From positions 1 through 39,234 of the forward strand of contig CAINFC010000061.1 in assembly GCA_903847975.1 (NCBI GenBank): DNA of 39,234 nt, in the 5' to 3' direction. A model generated the notes under the pieces. It had not been told where the DNA came from. It searched no databases and saw only the letters and a program-made list of their open reading frames with translations. How positions within the stretch are numbered: position 1 is the first letter of the stretch; the number at the start of each line of letters is the position of its first letter. Origin of the DNA: an uncultured Acidobacteriota bacterium (GTDB taxonomy: Bacteria; Acidobacteriota; UBA6911; CAINFC01). Of this stretch, positions 30,123 through 39,234 are shown in pieces. The position numbers and the translations under genes were made by a program.

Positions 30123-31484
30123 ATGACTCTTGCCGTTCCTGAGATCATCCGCAAGAAGCGGGACGGAGAAAAGCTCTCCTGCGAAGAGATTCAATCCCTG
30201 ATTCGCCATTACCTGGGGGGCGAAATTCCGGACTACCAGATGTCGGCCTTGCTGATGGCCATCTTTTTTCGAGGCATGGATGCAGAGGAGACAGGAACGC
30301 TGACCCGTTCGATGATGAGCTCCGGCGAAGTCCTGTCCTTCGCGCACCTTCCGGAAGCCAAGGTCGACAAGCACAGCACCGGGGGCGTGGGAGACAAGAC
30401 GTCTCTGATCCTCTCCCCGGCGGTTGCCGCCTGCGGCCTGCGCATTCCCATGATTTCCGGACGCGGGCTGGGCTTTACCGGGGGAACGCTGGATAAGCTG
30501 GAGTCGATTCCCGGCTTTCGGGTCCGGCTGGAGCCGGCCGAAGTCCAGCGGCTGGTGGAGCAGGAAGGATTTGCCCTGGTGGGGCAGTCCGACAATCTCG
30601 TGCCGGCAGACCGGCGGTTATACGCGCTTCGCGATGTGACCGCCACCGTGGAGAGCATTCCCCTGATCGTGGCCAGCATTATGAGCAAGAAGCTGGCGGA
30701 AGGGATCGACGCTCTGGTTCTCGATGTCAAAACGGGCCTGGGCGCTTTCATGAAAACGCCGGAGCGGGCCCGGGCTCTGGCGGCCGCCCTGGTGGATACC
30801 GGCTGGAAGATGGGCAAGCGGATGGCGGCGCTGATCACCGCCATGGACCAGCCTCTGGGCCTCAAGGTGGGTAACGCCCTGGAGGTGGAAGAGGTATTGG
30901 AGGTTCTGGGCGGAGGCGGCCCCCCGGACCTTTGCGAGCTGTGCCGGGTGCTGGCCGCCTACATGCTCTGGATGGGGAATGCGGTCGACTCCCTGCCGGC
31001 GGGAATGGAGCGCTACGACCAGGTCATTGCCAACGGTCAGGCTTTGGCAAAATTCCGAAGCCTGGTGGCCGCCCAGGGAGGGGACCCGCGGGTCATCGAC
31101 CGTCCGCAGCTCCTGCCTCAGGCCGGGCAGTCGGAGAGCGTGGTCAGCCCTGGCTCCGGATATCTTTCTGTTCTTCATGCCGGAAAGATCGGTTGGGCGG
31201 CGGTGCTGCTGGGTGCCGGGCGGATGACCGTGCAGTCGGCGATCGATCCTGCCGCCGGAATCGTGTTTTTCAAAAAAATCGGAGATCCGGTGGAAAAGGG
31301 GGAGAGGATATGCGAGCTGCGTTTCCACCCCGGTGCTTCCCTGGAAGAAGCACGGAACCTGGTGCGGGATGCCGTCTGCATTTCGCCCGAGCCGGTCGAA
31401 AAAACCCCTCTGATTCTGGATACCATCGTGGGGGATTTTCTCTTCCCGTCCGTCCGAGAAAATGCCGGAATCACAGGAAGATAA
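30123..31484 (+). CDS. Pyrimidine-nucleoside (thymidine) phosphorylase
   Basis: This 453-residue enzyme splits thymidine or uridine with phosphate into base and (deoxy)ribose-1-phosphate for salvage. Family features are EIIRKKRDGEKLSCEEIQSL, MSALLMAIFFRGMDAEETGT, KHSTGGVGDKTSLILSPAVA (phosphate site), SGRGLGFTGGTLDKLESIPG (the phosphorylase signature), DVTATVESIPLIVASIMSKK and LDVKTGLGAFMKT. The C-terminal barrel-sandwich domain ends GDFLFPSVRENAG. The length fits Pdp/DeoA. It could be DeoA (thymidine) or Pdp (both substrates). The start is ATG 30123, with only a weak ribosome site directly after the rpsU terminator. It is the only recognisable gene before a 600-base gap. Confidence 0.95.
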   Translation: MTLAVPEIIRKKRDGEKLSCEEIQSLIRHYLGGEIPDYQMSALLMAIFFRGMDAEETGTLTRSMMSSGEVLSFAHLPEAKVDKHSTGGVGDKTSLILSPAVAACGLRIPMISGRGLGFTGGTLDKLESIPGFRVRLEPAEVQRLVEQEGFALVGQSDNLVPADRRLYALRDVTATVESIPLIVASIMSKKLAEGIDALVLDVKTGLGAFMKTPERARALAAALVDTGWKMGKRMAALITAMDQPLGLKVGNALEVEEVLEVLGGGGPPDLCELCRVLAAYMLWMGNAVDSLPAGMERYDQVIANGQALAKFRSLVAAQGGDPRVIDRPQLLPQAGQSESVVSPGSGYLSVLHAGKIGWAAVLLGAGRMTVQSAIDPAAGIVFFKKIGDPVEKGERICELRFHPGASLEEARNLVRDAVCISPEPVEKTPLILDTIVGDFLFPSVRENAGITGR

Positions 31485-32097: not shown

Positions 32098-33603
32098 TCA
32101 GAGCTTCACAATAATCGGGCGGGTTGGCTTGCTTTCGTTGTGCAAACGGTCCAGCGCCGAAATCCGGATTTCGTATCTTTGGGGAAACCTGGAGGAATCG
32201 GCCGGCAGGGGAAAGCGGAGCTCCCTTGTAATCGCCAGGATTTGCTCCGGATTCTCGGGATCGAATTTCTTTCCGACCGGATTCCGATAGACGATGAACC
32301 GTACGGCTTTGTCCGTTTCCTTTTTCGACTTGCCGGCCTCCCAGAATAAGGTGTTGCCCTTTTGGCGGAAGTTTTTAGGTGGGTGCGGCGCCCGGTGGTC
32401 GATCCAGGGCATCGCCGGGATTAAGGCAGGGAATCGGTAAAGCTTTTTCCGCAGGTCCGTGTCGAATCCGAGCAAATCGCGATCGAAGTGACTGCTGCTG
32501 AAGAAAGCGCTTCCTTGCACCTTAAGCAGACGGCGCGTTAACTCGACCTGCTGCGTAAGCTGGTCGGGGTCTTTCCAAGCCGGCACCGTGGCATTGCCAT
32601 CCAGCCGGTAAAGGGCATGGCCGATGTACAGGCTTCTTCCAAATGCATTGGCTGCCCACCAGCGGATGAGTTTCGAAAAATCGGCCAGGGGGTGTCCGAT
32701 CTGCCAGTAAATCTGCGGCAGGCAGTAATCGATCCAGCCCTTCCGGAGCCACTTCAGAACATCGGCGTAAAGGTGGTCGTAATTGGTCACGCCGGCCCTG
32801 GTGTCCGAGCCCAGCCGATCCTTGTCCTGGTTTCGCCAAACGCCGAATGGACTGATTCCGAATTTGACCCAGGCCTTGGTTTTCTTGATTTTTTCCGAGA
32901 GCGAATGGATCAGTTCATCGATGTTGCTGCGCCGCCAGTCCGCTTTGCGGGAGGCGGGAAGCCCGCGTTTGAAGCGCCGCCAGGAGGCCTCATCCGGAAA
33001 ATCCTCTTTCGTCGGGTAGGGGTAAAAATAATCATCGAAATGGATGGCATCCACGTCATAGCGGCTGACAATATCTACGACCACCCGGGAAATAAACTCG
33101 CGAACCGGAGGCCAGCCCGGATCGAAATACAGTTTCCCTCCATAACGGACCATCCATTCGGGATTTTTGTGGACCACATGGGTTCCCGATAGGGTCTCCT
33201 CGGCGTTCTGGGAAATGCGGAAGGGGTTGATCCAGGCATGCAGCTCCATATTCCGTTTATGGCACTCTTCGATCCAGAACTGCAGAGGATCAAAGGCCGG
33301 CTGCGGAGCTTTCCCCTGTGTGCCGGACAAATAACGTGACCAGGGTTCCAGCGTCGAAGGGTAAAAGGCGTCGGCTGCCGGGCGAACCTGCAGGATGATG
33401 GCGTTCATGCCGTTTCTGGCGTGCAGATCGAGCAGCTGTTGGGTTTCTTTTTTCAGCTGCTCCGAAGATAGGCCCGGCCGGGACGGCCAGTCGATGTTGT
33501 TGACGGTAGCCACCCAGACTCCACGAAACTCGCGCTTGGGTGCAACCTGCCCAAAGGAGCTTCCTGCCAGGAGCAGAAAAATTAAAAATTGAGATTTCTT
33601 CAT
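32098..33603 (-). CDS. Secreted glycoside hydrolase-like protein (GHL10 / DUF187) with FN3 domain
   Basis: This 501-residue secreted protein has a signal peptide (MKKSQFLIFLLLAGSSFGQ) and a GHL10 (PF02638-type) TIM-barrel domain: FRGVWVATVNNIDWPSRPGL, MNAIILQVRPAADAFYPS, ELHAWINPFRISQN, VDIVSRYDVDAIHFDDYFYP and KFGISPFGVWRNQDKDR. A C-terminal fibronectin type III-like domain (about 415-501) ends RISALDRLHNESKPTRPIIV. GHL10 proteins are thought to act on glycans or cell-wall material and catalysis in the family is little characterised. ATG 33603 has GGGAAGGA upstream. It is divergent from the beta-helix gene and belongs to the secreted carbohydrate island. Confidence 0.9.
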   Translation of the reverse strand: MKKSQFLIFLLLAGSSFGQVAPKREFRGVWVATVNNIDWPSRPGLSSEQLKKETQQLLDLHARNGMNAIILQVRPAADAFYPSTLEPWSRYLSGTQGKAPQPAFDPLQFWIEECHKRNMELHAWINPFRISQNAEETLSGTHVVHKNPEWMVRYGGKLYFDPGWPPVREFISRVVVDIVSRYDVDAIHFDDYFYPYPTKEDFPDEASWRRFKRGLPASRKADWRRSNIDELIHSLSEKIKKTKAWVKFGISPFGVWRNQDKDRLGSDTRAGVTNYDHLYADVLKWLRKGWIDYCLPQIYWQIGHPLADFSKLIRWWAANAFGRSLYIGHALYRLDGNATVPAWKDPDQLTQQVELTRRLLKVQGSAFFSSSHFDRDLLGFDTDLRKKLYRFPALIPAMPWIDHRAPHPPKNFRQKGNTLFWEAGKSKKETDKAVRFIVYRNPVGKKFDPENPEQILAITRELRFPLPADSSRFPQRYEIRISALDRLHNESKPTRPIIVKL

Positions 33604-33802
33604 CGATCCTTCCCTTTGTCGGAACATTTTTCCAAACGCTCCCGTCAGACCCTACCAAAATCAGGGGGAAAAATACAAGAGAGACCTCGCCCCGGGGAAG
33701 CCAAGGCGCGAGAAAATCCGGACCTTCCATTCTTCCTGCGAATTCATTATCTTTTACGGTAAGGAAGGGCCTTTCGTTATAAGATAAGGCGGGAGAAATA
33801 AT
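33604..33802. promoter_or_regulatory. Divergent promoter region of GHL10 and beta-helix genes
   Basis: This 199-base gap lies between divergent start codons. Near the right side TTTACG and TTATAA are 18 bases apart, a plausible but weak promoter for the beta-helix gene. The left promoter was not identified. Confidence 0.35.
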
Positions 33803-35254
33803 ATGAGATTCGAATCCCTGGTGCTGGCCTGGATGGTTCTGCTTTGTTTCCTCGTTCCGGCAGTCGGACAGCCGGCCTCTTCGGCTCCGGCAGGGTTTGC
33901 CGATGCCGCCGATTTCGGCTTTTCCCCAGCGGCAGGCGGCCTGGAAAACCAGCGGGCCCTGCAGCGGGCGGTGGACCGTGGCGGCACGATTGTGGTCAGC
34001 ACCCCCGGGACATACCGGATGGGCGGCACGGTATATCTGGGCAGCCACACCTCGCTGCTGTTCGGCAATGGCGTCTTCCTGAAAAAAACGGACGAGGCCG
34101 GCCCCTTCTGCCATGTGCTGCTGAACAAGGGGGCTTTGACGAAAACCTATGACCGCGACATTACGGTGCGCGGGCTGCAGGTCATCGTCAATGGCATGGA
34201 TATCCGAAAATTCGAAGTCTACGGGCTGCACGGGCAGATTGCCTTCTTTTATATTAAAGACCTGCGCATCGAACGCTTCCGCTGCCCGGATCTCGGCAAG
34301 GCCCAGTATGGAATCCACATCTGCACCTTTGAGGATGTGATCGTGGATGATGTGATGATCCAGGGCGACAAGGACGGCGTGCATCTCGGACGGGGCAAGC
34401 GGTTTACCATCCGCAACGGCGTTTTCCGGACCTACGACGACGCCGTGGCGCTGAACGCCCACGACTATTCGGTGGGCAATCCGGAGCTCGGCTGGATCGA
34501 GGACGGCGTTGTGGAGAACTGCCATGATCTGGCGGACGGCCGGCCGCCGGTGGGATTTTTCTGCCGGATCCTGGCCGGGGCCTGGGTCGACTGGCGCTCG
34601 GGCATGGAGGTGCAGCAGTCGGATACCGTGGTTTCGCAGGGCCGGCTTTACCGGGTGCAGGCCAGGCCGGACGGAACCGTTTACAAATCGATCACCGCCC
34701 CGACCCACGAAAGCGGCAGCCGGGAGCTGGACGGGATCAACTGGGGAGTGGTTCAGAAGGATGTAACCTACACCGCCGGCGTGCGCCGCGTGGTGTTCCG
34801 GGATATTTTTCTCGAAAAGCCGCGCATCGGCTTTTCGGTTCACTTCGACAACGACCGCTACAGCCGGTCCTATTATCCGGGGGCCGCCGTTCCGCAGCAG
34901 GAGCAGCTTCTGCTGGAAAACATCCGTGTCCTGCACGACCAGCCCACCGAGCTGGTAAGCATCGGGACCCCGGTGGACGTTCTGACCATTGCCCAGTCCG
35001 TATTCCGTAACAACCGGATCACCTTTCACGGCAATCGCGCCATGTCGGACTACCTTCCTACCCGGATCAATATCCTCGGCTGCGTTTTTCAGCAGAAAGG
35101 ACCGATGGACCTGCTGGTTAACAGCGTTGCCGGCAAGGAATTGATTCTGAAGACCTCGGCCAGCATGCCGCTCTGGAACGAATTCGAGGCCCGGGTGCTG
35201 CCGGGGAGCGGCCGGGTGCAGATCGAATCGGACCTGCCCGGCCTGCGAAAGTGA
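33803..35254 (+). CDS. Secreted right-handed beta-helix protein, GH28/pectate-lyase-like, with inserted module
   Basis: This 483-residue secreted protein has a signal peptide (MRFESLVLAWMVLLCFLVPA, cleaved near VGQ) and a parallel beta-helix fold. The N-terminal region (DAADFGFSP..NQRALQRAVD) is the pectate-lyase_3 / GH28 entry. IQGDKDGVHLGRGKRFTIRN and TYDDAVALNAHDYS (residues 187-225) look like the GH28 turns with paired aspartates. A clear GHG motif is not seen. At about 245-315 an inserted segment (GMEVQQSDTVVSQGRLYRVQ, TAPTHESGSRELDGINWGVV) resembles a carbohydrate-binding or phage-tail-type module. GGGAGAAA precedes ATG 33803. The substrate is probably an acidic polysaccharide, but this is inference. 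Confidence 0.82.
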   Translation: MRFESLVLAWMVLLCFLVPAVGQPASSAPAGFADAADFGFSPAAGGLENQRALQRAVDRGGTIVVSTPGTYRMGGTVYLGSHTSLLFGNGVFLKKTDEAGPFCHVLLNKGALTKTYDRDITVRGLQVIVNGMDIRKFEVYGLHGQIAFFYIKDLRIERFRCPDLGKAQYGIHICTFEDVIVDDVMIQGDKDGVHLGRGKRFTIRNGVFRTYDDAVALNAHDYSVGNPELGWIEDGVVENCHDLADGRPPVGFFCRILAGAWVDWRSGMEVQQSDTVVSQGRLYRVQARPDGTVYKSITAPTHESGSRELDGINWGVVQKDVTYTAGVRRVVFRDIFLEKPRIGFSVHFDNDRYSRSYYPGAAVPQQEQLLLENIRVLHDQPTELVSIGTPVDVLTIAQSVFRNNRITFHGNRAMSDYLPTRINILGCVFQQKGPMDLLVNSVAGKELILKTSASMPLWNEFEARVLPGSGRVQIESDLPGLRK

Positions 35255-35516
35255 GCACCGGCAGGCCCGGATCCCCTCCTGCGTACCAGGGGGCTTACAA
35301 GCCCCTATGGGCCGCTGTCACCGCCTTGTATGGGAACCAATATCCGCTTGAGCGCTGCATCCCCCGCTATCAGACTACGGTCCACACCGATGAACGGCAG
35401 GCAATCGACGCGAAAAGTTGGCTGGGAATGAGATTCTTTTGATACTATGTCAACCAGAAGCTTTCAACGATCAACCGAACGAACCGATCACCTCATGCAC
35501 ATTTGAATGGTCTGAA
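35255..35516. other. Intergenic gap between two polysaccharide genes
   Basis: This 262-base gap separates the beta-helix gene from the lyase-like gene. It holds a short hairpin (GGGGCT 35290-35295 with AGCCCC 35300-35305) without a T-run, perhaps a weak end for the first gene. No gene is supported. Confidence 0.4.
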
Positions 35517-36671
35517 ATGAAATTCCTGCCTCTCCTGCTGTTCTTTCCTGTTCTTCTCCATTCCCAACCCCTCACATGGGATCAGCTGGTGCGAATGGAG
35601 AAGGATCGCGTCATCGGTGCGGCAACCAGGTACCTTTCCGAATCGCCGGTCACGGTCACGGCGGCAAAAGCCGAACGAAGCGCCGGCGGACTGCACGACT
35701 ACTATTCCGAGGCGACGTACTGGTGGCCGAATTTAAAAGATCCGAACGGTCCGTATATCCGCAAGGACGGTTTGACGAATCCTGAAAATTTCGAATCGCA
35801 CCTTTTGGCGTTGCAGCGGCTCTCGATCCATGTCGCGGGACTTACCGCCGCATTCGTGTTGACGAACGATAAAGTATACGCCGACAAGGCGCAGGAACAC
35901 CTGCGGGCATGGTTCGTGGACGGGAAGACCAGGATGAATCCGAATCTCCTCTACGCGCAGGCCATCAAAGGCGTCGTGACCGGGCGGGGCATCGGGATCA
36001 TCGATGCCATCCATTGTATCGAGGTGGTGAAGTCGTTGATGGTGTTGGAGAAAAAGAAGTATCTTTCGCCACAGGACGTGAAACCGATCAAAGAATGGTT
36101 TCGGGAATTCCTTGGTTGGATAACGACCCATCCGTACGGTATTGACGAACGGGACAACGGGAACAACCACAGCACGTGGTGGGCGGCGCAGGTGGCGATG
36201 TATGCCACGTTCGTGGGAGACGAGGAACAAAAGGAATTTTGCCGGCGATTCTATCGGGGCACGCTCCTCACCAGGCAAATGGCGAAGGACGGCAGCTTCC
36301 CGGAAGAATTACGCCGGACCCGCCCGTACAGCTATTCGCTCTTCAACATGGAGGGAATGGCTTTGCTGTGCGAGATCCTCTCGGATACGAAATCGTCCCT
36401 GTGGGACGTCACGACCGCGGATGGCAGGGGCATGCGGAAAGCGATGGAGTTCCTCGTGCCGTTCGTCAAGAACAAGAAATCGTGGACCTACCCGAAGGAT
36501 GTGGCGCACTTTGATGAACTTCCGGTGCGGATGCAGTCCATCCTGTTCGCGGCATGCGCATTCAAAAAGGATGAATACTTCGAGGTGTGGAAATCTTTGA
36601 ATGCGGATTACACGGGAGAAGAATTGATCCGGACATTTCCTATCCATCAGCCGATTCTCTGGTGGAAATAG
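35517..36671 (+). CDS. Secreted alginate-lyase-superfamily protein (polysaccharide lyase, PL5/PL38-like)
   Basis: This 384-residue secreted protein has a signal peptide (MKFLPLLLFFPVLLHSQ) and an alginate-lyase (PF05426) alpha-toroid fold. DYYSEATYWWPNLKDPNGPY (residues 61-80), VVTGRGIGIIDAIHC and DERDNGNNHSTWWAAQVAMY, with the NNH triad position at 216-218, and RPYSYSLFNMEGMALLCEIL are the conserved cores. The NNHSTWW histidine and a YSY-type tyrosine are probable catalytic residues. It may cleave glucuronan, mannuronan or a related uronate polymer. ATG 35517 has only a weak ribosome site. Base composition is visibly less GC-rich than its neighbours, suggesting later acquisition. Confidence 0.85.
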   Translation: MKFLPLLLFFPVLLHSQPLTWDQLVRMEKDRVIGAATRYLSESPVTVTAAKAERSAGGLHDYYSEATYWWPNLKDPNGPYIRKDGLTNPENFESHLLALQRLSIHVAGLTAAFVLTNDKVYADKAQEHLRAWFVDGKTRMNPNLLYAQAIKGVVTGRGIGIIDAIHCIEVVKSLMVLEKKKYLSPQDVKPIKEWFREFLGWITTHPYGIDERDNGNNHSTWWAAQVAMYATFVGDEEQKEFCRRFYRGTLLTRQMAKDGSFPEELRRTRPYSYSLFNMEGMALLCEILSDTKSSLWDVTTADGRGMRKAMEFLVPFVKNKKSWTYPKDVAHFDELPVRMQSILFAACAFKKDEYFEVWKSLNADYTGEELIRTFPIHQPILWWK

Positions 36672-36694
36672 TCGTCGCCCCGAATTAAGGACCA

Positions 36695-36709
36695 CCACTT
36701 AAAAAGTGG
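36695..36709. terminator. Small hairpin between lyase gene and malectin remnant
   Basis: CCACTT (36695-36700) and AAGTGG (36704-36709) pair around three bases, followed by AATTTT. It is between convergent genes and is a possible weak bidirectional terminator. Confidence 0.4.
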
Positions 36710-36714
36710 AATTT

Positions 36715-37054
36715 TCATAAAACGGGCGCCGGCTCGATTACCGCACCGCAAATTACCGCCTGACCCGTAATGGGGGTGAGCCGTACCTCGATCCCGCCGC
36801 CCGCCTCGAGCCGTACAGGGTAGACGCGCTCGATCAGGTGCTGCGCGCCTCCGGCAAGCCTGGCAATATCTACGCGTTCCAGCCGGGAAAACTCCGAGCC
36901 GGATCCGGTCGCCGCCACCCGCACCGCAACCTCGAACACCCGCTGGCCCGCGGCGATGGCCTCGGGTTCCAGAAGCAGCAGATGCAACCGGTATTCCCCG
37001 GCAGGCAGCGGCACCGGCTTCGATTTCTTACGGCTGTCGTTGGCCATGATGGGC
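36715..37054 (-). pseudogene. Malectin-like domain remnant, C-terminal part of a gene cut by the IS
   Basis: The minus-strand frame from 37047 to 36715 encodes about 110 residues with a malectin-like carbohydrate-binding pattern: AGEYRLHLLLLEPEAIAAGQ, RVFEVAVRVAATG and GGGIEVRLTPITGQAVICGA followed by VIEPAPV. The pattern matches the end of malectin domains on large glycoside hydrolases such as GH2 enzymes. The IS terminal repeat begins at 37055, immediately upstream, and no ribosome site or proper start precedes the frame, so I read this as the 3' end of an interrupted gene. The missing N-terminal part should lie beyond the right end of the window. The domain call is by pattern only. Confidence 0.65.
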
Positions 37055-37071
37055 CCCACATTCCTCACCCT
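37055..37071 (+). repeat. Left terminal inverted repeat of the IS
   Basis: CCCACATTCCTCACCCT is the exact reverse complement of 39216-39232. Similarity ends just inside the next base. Confidence 0.88.
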
Positions 37072-37128
37072 TTCTGACTGGATTTCTTCGGATTTTCCCA
37101 GAAAGGGATTTTTTTTGTGTTTCAATGT

Positions 37129-37151
37129 ATAGCAATCTATATATATGCTAT
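37129..37151 (+). promoter_or_regulatory. Inverted repeat near the first IS gene
   Basis: ATAGCA (37129-37134) and TGCTAT (37146-37151) flank an AT-rich 11-base centre, ten bases before the first IS start codon. It may overlap the IS promoter or an operator. Confidence 0.4.
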
Positions 37152-37160
37152 TATTGGAAA

Positions 37161-37496
37161 ATGTCAAGTCGAATTGCAATGAAACTCATCGACGAGCGTT
37201 CCCAGTTGCTTACGGAACTGGGAACCCTTTCCGGACTGTTGCGAGGATCTTGGGTGGAACGGTACTCCACATGCTCCCGAGCGGAGTGCCGATGCCACCG
37301 GGGGGAGCGACACGGGCCACGACGCTATTTGGTGGTCAATGAATTTGGACGGCAACGGCAAAAGTACGTGCCCAACTCCTATGTAGAGGCTGCCCGGGAA
37401 GGAATGGATCAGTATCGTCGCTTGCAGGAAATCGTCGGGCGTATTACGGAAATCAATTTATCTTTAATGAAAGAGGAGGACCATGAAGCTCTGTGA
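37161..37496 (+). CDS. DUF6788-like accessory protein of the IS
   Basis: This 111-residue protein has the pattern LRGSWVERYSTCSRAECRCH, then RGERHGPRRYLVVNEFGRQR and a helical C-terminus (YVEAAREGMDQYRRLQEIVG). The Cys-x4-Cys-x-Cys-His motif followed by HGPRRYL is that of DUF6788, a family commonly beside IS transposases. The cysteine cluster could bind zinc. The stop overlaps the transposase start by 14 bases, so the pair is coupled. ATG 37161 is preceded by GGAAA only. The function is unknown. A DNA-binding or regulatory role in transposition is inference. Confidence 0.8.
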   Translation: MSSRIAMKLIDERSQLLTELGTLSGLLRGSWVERYSTCSRAECRCHRGERHGPRRYLVVNEFGRQRQKYVPNSYVEAAREGMDQYRRLQEIVGRITEINLSLMKEEDHEAL

Positions 37497-39222
37497 TGCT
37501 CCACTTGCCGGATGGGAGATTCTCGGGGGAGGTGAGATTTTCACCCATGGACATCTGCCGACGGCTGCTGCCTATTGCCGACGGCTGGGGTTGGTCGAGT
37601 TGGTGGACCGCCTGGTGCCCACTCAAATGGAACTGCGACCCGGCTTGGTGGTCCAAGCGATGGTTCTCGATACCCTGTCGGGAAGAACTCCGCTCTATCG
37701 AATCGAGCAGTTTCTGGCCGACCAAGATGTGGAACTGCTTTTAGGCGAAGCCGTTCCTGCGCACCGTTTCAACGACACCAATTTGGCCCGGTCTCTGGAT
37801 GCTCTGTTCGCTGCGGGGACTTCCAAGATTGTGACGGAGCTTGGAATCCGAGCCGTGGGTGCCTTTGGGTTGGATACTTCCATTCCCAGCTACGACACCA
37901 CCTCGACCAGTGTCTGGGGAGACTACCGTCCCTGCGAATCGGACTGTCCTCCGGCAGGTCCCGTCATCACCCACGGACACAGCAAAGATCATCTTCCGGG
38001 ACTCAAGCAGTTCATGACGGAATTGCTGTGCGTAGACCGAGGTGTGCCTATTTTTGGACGAACGCTGGACGGCAACTCATCGGACAAGACCTCCAACCAC
38101 AAGATGCTGTCCCGCATCAGTTCGATTATGGCTCTGCACGGATTAGGGCCCGGTGCCTTCGTCTATGTGGCCGACTCCGCCATGGTGACCGAAAAAAACC
38201 TGGAGGCGACCCATCCGAATTACTTCCTCACGCGACTTCCGGCAACCTATGGGGAATGTGAACGGGTGATTACGGCCGCCGTCGACGGGCAGAACTGGAC
38301 ATTCATCGGTCCTCTGGTGGAAACGATCACCGGAAAGAACCGGCCCTGTGCGGAATACAAGGTGACGGAAAGTTCGGTGGAGCTCCATGGGAAAACCTAT
38401 CGGACGGTGGTGGTCCATTCCAGTGCTCATGATAAACGGCGGCAGAAAAAGCTGGAGAAAACCATCGCCGGATCCGCCAAGTCCATTACCGAAGAGTTGG
38501 CCAAGTTGCCTTCGGTCTACTTTTGTGAAGCGGATGCCCGGGCGGCAGCCAAACGGGCCGAGGGTCTTTCGACTCCGTTGCACACCGTGGCCATTACGAT
38601 TTGTCCCGTGGAAGTTCGTCGTCGAGGGCGTCCACCCGCCCAGGGACCGGCACCCACCGACACCCGCTTCACCCTGTCTTGGAGTATCGCGGAAAACGCT
38701 GCCGAAGTGGAAAAGGAAAGAAGCCGAGCCGGTTGTTTCGTCCTGTTAACGAATGTGCCCTTGGAAGGAGACGGTGCCATGGATGCCGCCCGATTGCTAA
38801 AAACCTACAAAGGACAGTACGGCATTGAAAGCGATTTTGCCTTCCTTAAAGACCCCCTGGTGGTGAACGATCTCTTTCTTAAAACCCCCTCGCGGATCGA
38901 TGCTCTCGGTATGATCTTGATCATCGCCCTCATGATCTGGCGGCTTATGGAGCGGTCGATGCGGGTGTATGTACAGAACACTCAAACCACTCTGCCTGGT
39001 TGGGATCGTAAAACCACCGATAAGCCGACCTCCTTCATGATGATCACCACCATGACAGGAATCCTGGTGGCGCGAACTCAAGACCAGCGGTTGCTGTTAT
39101 GCCCACCGGGCCCCAATCAATTAGCTTTCTTGGTGGCCTTGGGTCTGGGTCCTTCCGCATTCATCGACCATCATGCTTGCTGTGTGCCAATAATTCCTCT
39201 CCGTTCCGTATCAAGAGGGTGA
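37483..39222 (+). CDS. IS1634 family transposase
   Basis: This 579-residue DDE transposase resembles the IS1634/IS4 superfamily. An N-terminal region reads HLPTAAAYCRRLGLVELVDR and FNDTNLARSLDALFAAGTSK. The first aspartate is in LDTSIPSYDTTSTSVWG, then HGHSKDHLPGLKQFMTELL and GVPIFGRTLDGNSSDKTSNH. The second is in AFVYVADSAMVTEKNL, and the late acidic residue in YKGQYGIESDFAFLKDPLVV (YREKxx-type motif, here YGIESDF). A GRPPAQGP linker sits in the insertion domain. Length suits the family. GAGGAGG precedes ATG 37483. The frame is intact, so the element may be active. The gene ends ten bases before the right repeat ends. Confidence 0.95.
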   Translation: MKLCDAPLAGWEILGGGEIFTHGHLPTAAAYCRRLGLVELVDRLVPTQMELRPGLVVQAMVLDTLSGRTPLYRIEQFLADQDVELLLGEAVPAHRFNDTNLARSLDALFAAGTSKIVTELGIRAVGAFGLDTSIPSYDTTSTSVWGDYRPCESDCPPAGPVITHGHSKDHLPGLKQFMTELLCVDRGVPIFGRTLDGNSSDKTSNHKMLSRISSIMALHGLGPGAFVYVADSAMVTEKNLEATHPNYFLTRLPATYGECERVITAAVDGQNWTFIGPLVETITGKNRPCAEYKVTESSVELHGKTYRTVVVHSSAHDKRRQKKLEKTIAGSAKSITEELAKLPSVYFCEADARAAAKRAEGLSTPLHTVAITICPVEVRRRGRPPAQGPAPTDTRFTLSWSIAENAAEVEKERSRAGCFVLLTNVPLEGDGAMDAARLLKTYKGQYGIESDFAFLKDPLVVNDLFLKTPSRIDALGMILIIALMIWRLMERSMRVYVQNTQTTLPGWDRKTTDKPTSFMMITTMTGILVARTQDQRLLLCPPGPNQLAFLVALGLGPSAFIDHHACCVPIIPLRSVSRG

Positions 39223-39232
39223 GGAATGTGGG
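39216..39232 (-). repeat. Right terminal inverted repeat of the IS
   Basis: AGGGTGAGGAATGTGGG, the exact reverse complement of the left repeat. It overlaps the transposase stop codon region and leaves two bases of flank (AT) before the window ends. Confidence 0.88.
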
Positions 39233-39234
39233 AT

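Follow-up and report, generated by a model that had tools for sequence, protein, structure and literature searches.

What kind of element has inserted at the end of this contig, what does it carry besides its transposase, and which gene did it probably interrupt? The window, 39,234 nucleotides in length, is an entire contig (G000:C61) in the genome of an uncultured Acidobacteriota bacterium (8.13 Mb in 326 contigs, 99% complete), and it terminates two bases beyond an insertion element. The element occupies positions 37055-39232 (2178 bp) and holds a pair of plus-strand genes inside 17-bp inverted repeats. We consider with good confidence that the best overall explanation is a complete two-gene IS1634 element with an exchangeable DUF6788 companion gene, whose insertion would have split a malectin-domain gene. 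As an insertion it is unremarkable, and its interest lies in the companion.

The left terminal repeat (CCCACATTCCTCACCCT, 37055-37071, plus strand) and the right one (39216-39232, minus strand) are exact complements at 17 of 17 positions, and the match does not extend further. None of 300 mononucleotide shuffles of positions 36001-39234 gave an exact 17-bp inverted repeat, the longest being 14 bp, in a count restricted to repeats whose arms were separated by 500 bp or more. The two repeats enclose the full-length gene of an IS1634-family transposase (37483-39222, plus strand, 579 aa), whose stop codon falls within the right terminal repeat. The protein matches the family model NF033559 over residues 23-554 (E=1.8e-79, 268 bits against a cut-off of 100). 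A sequence-only reading of this DNA had proposed a complete IS1634-like element with identical 17-bp repeats at 37055 and 39216, and the repeats, the completeness and the family type are all borne out.

The presumed catalytic residues, picked by eye, are D138, D231 and E449, with spacers of 92 and 217 residues, and the motif Y442-x2-Q445-x3-E449-x6-K456 has a glutamine in place of the YREK arginine. In the available excerpts of the family description, IS1634 (formerly the IS1549 group) is characterized by DDE residues with a long N3-C1 spacer, a YREK motif usually lacking the arginine, a duplication of 5-6 bp of target in tracts described as AT-rich, a typical length of 1500-2000 bp and, in a table, ends that follow the pattern C-----YT (PMC2266710). 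The window element resembles the family as excerpted there in its transposase model, its long second DDE spacer, its YREK motif without R, its 6-bp duplication (see below) and its end, CCCACATT, which fits the terminal pattern. It departs from the norm given in the same excerpts in its length of 2178 bp, in the DUF6788 gene upstream of the transposase and in a target site, ATGGGC, that is not AT-rich (PMC2266710). The extra gene would account for the unusual length.

Few close relatives of this transposase were found. Searches gave none at E<=1e-60 in the class (37 other genomes), at E<=1e-40 in 395 other genomes of the phylum (with at most three candidates scored per genome) or in viral contigs by a pattern-based scan, and there was no relevant solved structure among its relatives. 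In the viral contigs the 17-bp end was found once, in an unrelated setting. All plasmid matches were less than 60% identical, with identities of 29-31% among the 25 matches listed. A pattern-based search of the genome collection retrieved a single relative, at locus L013, and a search of phages with the protein of L013 as query gave no relative. IS1634 transposases of more distant kinship are common across the phylum, where 53 of 396 genomes have them, and the source genome itself has two further IS1634-type matches (G000:C162:5555-7093 and G000:C180:270-1172).

The second gene of the element, absent from the earlier reading, encodes a DUF6788 protein (37161-37496, plus strand; PF20586, 76.9 bits against a cut-off of 27.2). 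Its frame (37125-37496) also contains an ATG at 37125, but the likely start is the ATG at 37161, which gives a protein of 111 aa. The gene overlaps that of the transposase by 14 bases, and an AGGAGG at 37474-37479 (plus strand), the likely ribosome site of the transposase gene, lies within the last DUF6788 codons; given this overlap and the internal AGGAGG, the two genes are probably translationally coupled. The protein carries a C-x4-C-x-C...H motif, of which the three cysteines are conserved in 38 of 38 DUF6788 proteins and the histidine in 37 of 38. This count omits five of the 43 loci described below, namely L021 and L022, which resemble L019, L051, which has the motif and an atypical-looking start, and L039 and L059, where the lack of the histidine and of the cysteines, respectively, counts against full invariance. 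The variant without the three cysteines (L059:2670-2957) adjoins an IS4 transposase and is perhaps a natural test of the need for a metal.

The predicted structure of the DUF6788 protein is of low confidence (mean pLDDT 71) and consists of a helix, strands around the Cys-His loop, a hairpin and a long helix. A fold search gave no convincing match (best E 0.22), and we found no relevant solved relative, no viral relative by pattern-based search and one weak plasmid match. A literature search returned no publication naming DUF6788 and none linking PF20586 to an insertion sequence. Our guess is a zinc-knuckle-like helper or regulator of transposition, with nucleic acid or the transposase as its putative binding partner.

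How widespread is this companion? Across the phylum, 51 of 396 genomes have DUF6788, in a survey that scored at most 11 candidates per genome, and so, under the cut-off, does one of 14 control genomes. The 43 loci examined comprise the window, L013, 29 of 30 fetched loci and 12 chosen regions, a sample that favours strong matches; L028, which duplicates L048, was not counted. DUF6788 adjoins a transposase or recombinase in 25 of these 43 loci. The neighbours are of the types ISKra4 (11), IS4 (5), IS1634 (4), IS701 (2), serine recombinase (2) and ISNCY (1), the type being assigned by BLAST cluster for L026, L030, L033, L034, L037, L038, L041 and L046. Among the neighbours typed singly, at least one each of IS1634, ISKra4, IS4 and ISNCY exceeds the curated cut-off, the two IS701 neighbours fall under theirs (169 against 170 and 128 against 150), and L029 and the recombinase of L018 also score under the cut-off. 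The companion is not confined to DDE transposases, since at L018 and L026 the gene immediately downstream of DUF6788 resembles a serine recombinase (XisF-like, with a score under the cut-off). The source genome has four more DUF6788 genes (on G000:C123, C85, C294 and C168), three of them adjoining short ISKra4-type transposase frames.

Of 22 elements tested, 14 have the DUF6788 and transposase genes together inside an inverted repeat, which pairs at 22 of 22 bases in one IS701-type example and at 18 of 18 in an IS1634 one; the test allowed 30 bases at the edges and was made without a shuffle control, and some of its eight misses were truncated by the end of the available stretch. The proteins beside ISKra4, IS4, IS701 and ISNCY transposases are likewise small, bear the same C-x4-C-x-C...H motif and often lie within inverted repeats. 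The window protein differs from them in accompanying an IS1634 transposase, in the same direction. Available excerpts of a study of ISKra4 elements describe four that carry extra genes of unknown function (PMC3942029). They resemble the window element in being IS-like with additional genes of that kind; in those excerpts the genes are not named as DUF6788, nor are they tied to several IS families (PMC3942029).

Among IS1634 elements, DUF6788 is an optional companion. It lies beside 4 of 95 IS1634 matches (fragments included, at most three IS1634 candidates scored per genome) and was found in none of 30 fetched IS1634 loci with a model that recovered five of five held-out DUF6788 loci. This rarity indicates that IS1634 elements do not need it.

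The relation between element and companion is best seen by comparing the window with L013, an IS1634-type element on MPPA01000016.1, a single contig, possibly misbinned or misassembled, of a metagenome-assembled genome named Methanococcoides sp. EBM-47. The two transposases are 59% identical, the left ends are the same over 17 bp, each element has a DUF6788 gene in the equivalent slot, and both presumed left target sites begin with AT (ATAGAT in L013, where the right end lies off the contig). The DUF6788 proteins, in contrast, are 27% identical, are encoded on opposite strands relative to the transposase and belong to different lineages. In a tree of 36 DUF6788 proteins, from which L050 and L054 (near-copies) were left out besides the proteins omitted from the motif count, an AU test rejects a clade of the window and L013 proteins (p=5.9e-5) and a clade of the four IS1634 companions (p=2.3e-5). 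Support within the tree is modest, with 12 of 33 inner branches starred. The window protein falls among companions of IS4-type transposases and serine recombinases, on a branch that has 93/88 support and is not starred; its nearest relative by tree path is that of L029, beside an IS4-type transposase, and it is 42% identical over 93 residues to that of L018, beside a serine recombinase. The L013 protein groups with the IS1634 companion L031 (93/94) and then with the ISKra4 companion L055.

On this tree DUF6788 switches orientation with respect to the adjoining gene twice, against a mean of 5.5 in shuffled labellings, and none of 300 shuffles reached two; the count covers 23 labelled rows, with L059 (divergent) and L050 (co-directional) outside it. 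The neighbour family changes nine times against a shuffled mean of 12.1, with 2 of 300 shuffles as low, so the neighbours too are partly conserved. The window gene is co-directional with its transposase, and the other four IS1634 cases (L013, L025, L031 and G101:C533) are divergent. Since two elements alike in transposase and identical at the left end carry DUF6788 lineages that differ and face opposite ways, we read DUF6788 as a gene that has been exchanged between elements, with its orientation following the companion lineage.

Does an exchangeable companion also do something for the element? The main rival explanation, which we regard as a serious contender albeit somewhat short of an even chance, is that DUF6788 is a passive passenger that hitchhikes with the elements and has no role in transposition. 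It would fit with the large majority of IS1634 matches that manage without an adjoining DUF6788, and with the 18 of 43 loci where no transposase or recombinase was recognised next to the gene, though several of these are near contig ends. A passenger would be harder to reconcile with the conservation of the cysteines and the histidine (the two exceptions outside the count notwithstanding), with the recurrence of DUF6788 beside transposases of several families, with its confinement together with the transposase gene inside one pair of inverted repeats in most of the 22 elements tested, or with the overlap of the two genes in the window element. We read DUF6788 as an exchangeable IS companion, whose putative function would most likely be to assist or regulate transposition.

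The manner of insertion can be followed in other copies of the element. The end motif, searched across the whole source genome with up to two mismatches, gave six ends: left ends on C61, C311 and C165, and right ends on C106 and C36 in addition to that of C61 itself. The ends of the other copies are identical to those of the window element over the 138-139 bases present. Of six left-right pairs compared, only C165/C36 has a common suffix and prefix, of exactly 6 bases (ATTAAG). This copy interrupts a molybdopterin oxidoreductase gene whose halves lie on separate contigs (G000:C165 4428 and G000:C36 139). When the element is removed and one ATTAAG is kept, a stop-free frame of at least 656 codons runs across the site, and the rejoined halves give matches to the Fe4S4 (PF04879) and main (PF00384) domains of molybdopterin oxidoreductases; by eye, the gene begins with what we take to be a twin-arginine-like leader. 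The copy on C106 sits in a ParD antitoxin gene (PF03693; L002:1285-1500, minus strand), directly followed by a frame with a presumed resemblance to the partner toxin. The copy on C311 lies, by eye, shortly past the end of a gene.

The other edges read ATGGGC (C61), ATGAAG (C311) and ATCGAG (C106), so AT begins all four distinct target sites in this genome, and the right flanks of C106 and C36 also open with AT. The expected duplication of 5-6 bases is thus realized, as 6 bp, on the sister copy. We infer that the window copy made a 6-bp duplication as well, ATGGGC, whose left copy (37049-37054) would lie immediately left of the repeat, with a length taken from the C165/C36 copy. As had been noted from the sequence, the right flank reads AT (39233-39234), presumably the opening of the right target copy, and there the contig ends, ahead of the predicted GGGC. 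That it stops two bases beyond the element presumably reflects copies that are alike as far as the AT and differ from there on, and a shared AT at the start of the targets would explain its last two letters. The end-motif search found no contig of the source genome on which the right end of the element is followed by ATGGGC. Long variable duplications (8-514 bp), ascribed to IS1549 and IS1634 themselves in the excerpted family description (PMC2266710), have no sign in the window element, and no left-right pair agrees beyond 6 bases. The copy number is at least four if each copy has its duplication, or at least three if a rearrangement has made C106 the right-hand partner of C61 or C311; on C61, several copies may have been collapsed into one consensus for the element body. 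In the proposed mechanism, the DDE transposase would bind the 17-bp ends, excise the element and insert it at a 6-bp staggered cut whose top strand starts with AT, which would yield the 6-bp duplication.

Which gene did the window copy probably interrupt? Abutting the left end is a minus-strand frame (36715-37047, 110 codons) that resembles the C-terminal part of a malectin-like domain and ends at the insertion; its PF11721 score, 18.2 bits, misses the cut-off of 23. In a comparison with 60 genomes, the source genome included, the fragment had matches only in that genome and in G018, of the same class. Its identity is 31% with residues 1133-1215 of a 1222-aa stretch on G000:C83, and 28% with residues 1491-1568 of a 1577-aa frame in G018. 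Both relatives combine PQQ_2 propeller domains with a C-terminal malectin domain (49.2 and 29.7 bits with PF11721) and share the sequence GVNFGAPGDR, 96 and 87 residues ahead of the matched part. The fragment has no room for this sequence, so the element likely cut inside the malectin-like domain of a larger gene. Further left are a pyrimidine-nucleoside-phosphorylase-like gene (30123-31484), a glycosyl-hydrolase-like-10 gene (32098-33627, minus strand), a weakly pectate-lyase-like gene (33803-35254) and an alginate-lyase gene (35418-36671).

The sequence-only reading had described an open malectin-like frame without a start, left behind by a split hydrolase gene. The abutting frame is there and looks truncated, with the below-cut-off score and the matches in just two of 60 genomes weakening the case for a split malectin gene. 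That it lacks a start is not strictly right, as the frame has possible starts at an ATG (37047) and, inside the element, a TTG (37179). A hydrolase is not indicated, both relatives being PQQ-repeat propeller proteins and the sole hydrolase-like model listed being a weak one (NF049877, E=0.19); the parent gene could still differ from these relatives. Where, then, is the rest of it? Searches of the source genome with the fragment, with PF11721 and with the C83 relative did not yield the missing part, and the latter two (at E<=0.01 and E<=0.001, respectively) did not recover even the fragment itself. Its upstream portion presumably sits on a contig that the assembly lacks.

Alternatively, the fragment may be an older remnant, the rest having been removed on the right by a deletion or rearrangement after insertion. 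The absence of a contig with the partner right end from a genome that is 99% complete would accord with such a loss, as would the failure of the C83 relative to turn up another piece. We nevertheless consider it unlikely: a partner contig is absent for two of the three left ends and for one of the two other right ends, so missing partners are common here, and the parent gene may resemble the C83 protein within the malectin domain only. It is still less probable that the 110 codons are a complete short gene starting at ATG 37047, just upstream of which the element inserted. This in-frame ATG is 7 bases from the element, but in both relatives the matching stretch stands at the very end of a protein of more than 1200 aa, with GVNFGAPGDR at a distance the fragment is too short to span. 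Least probable of all is an assembler that fused the left flank and the element body from different copies, a risk raised by several copies identical over 138-139 end bases and by the other contigs breaking within the element, since at the left junction the element's end is perfect and the target, like those of the other copies, starts with AT, and the interior alone would be common to them. A probable interruption of a malectin-domain gene remains our reading of the left flank.

Taken at its broadest, the companion would be a roaming transposition factor with a CCCH zinc-knuckle-like motif, moving among the unrelated DDE families IS1634, ISKra4, IS4, IS701 and ISNCY, keeping its orientation preference, replacing other companion lineages while transposase and ends stay in place, and working with each transposase that it joins. 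This version is tentative, and we think it rather doubtful as a whole. The window element and L013 offer a natural pair, with the same end, a similar transposase and a different companion, and the DUF6788 companion provides a testable clue to a protein family of unknown function. Should DUF6788 indeed take part in transposition, unrelated DDE insertion sequences would have a helper in common.
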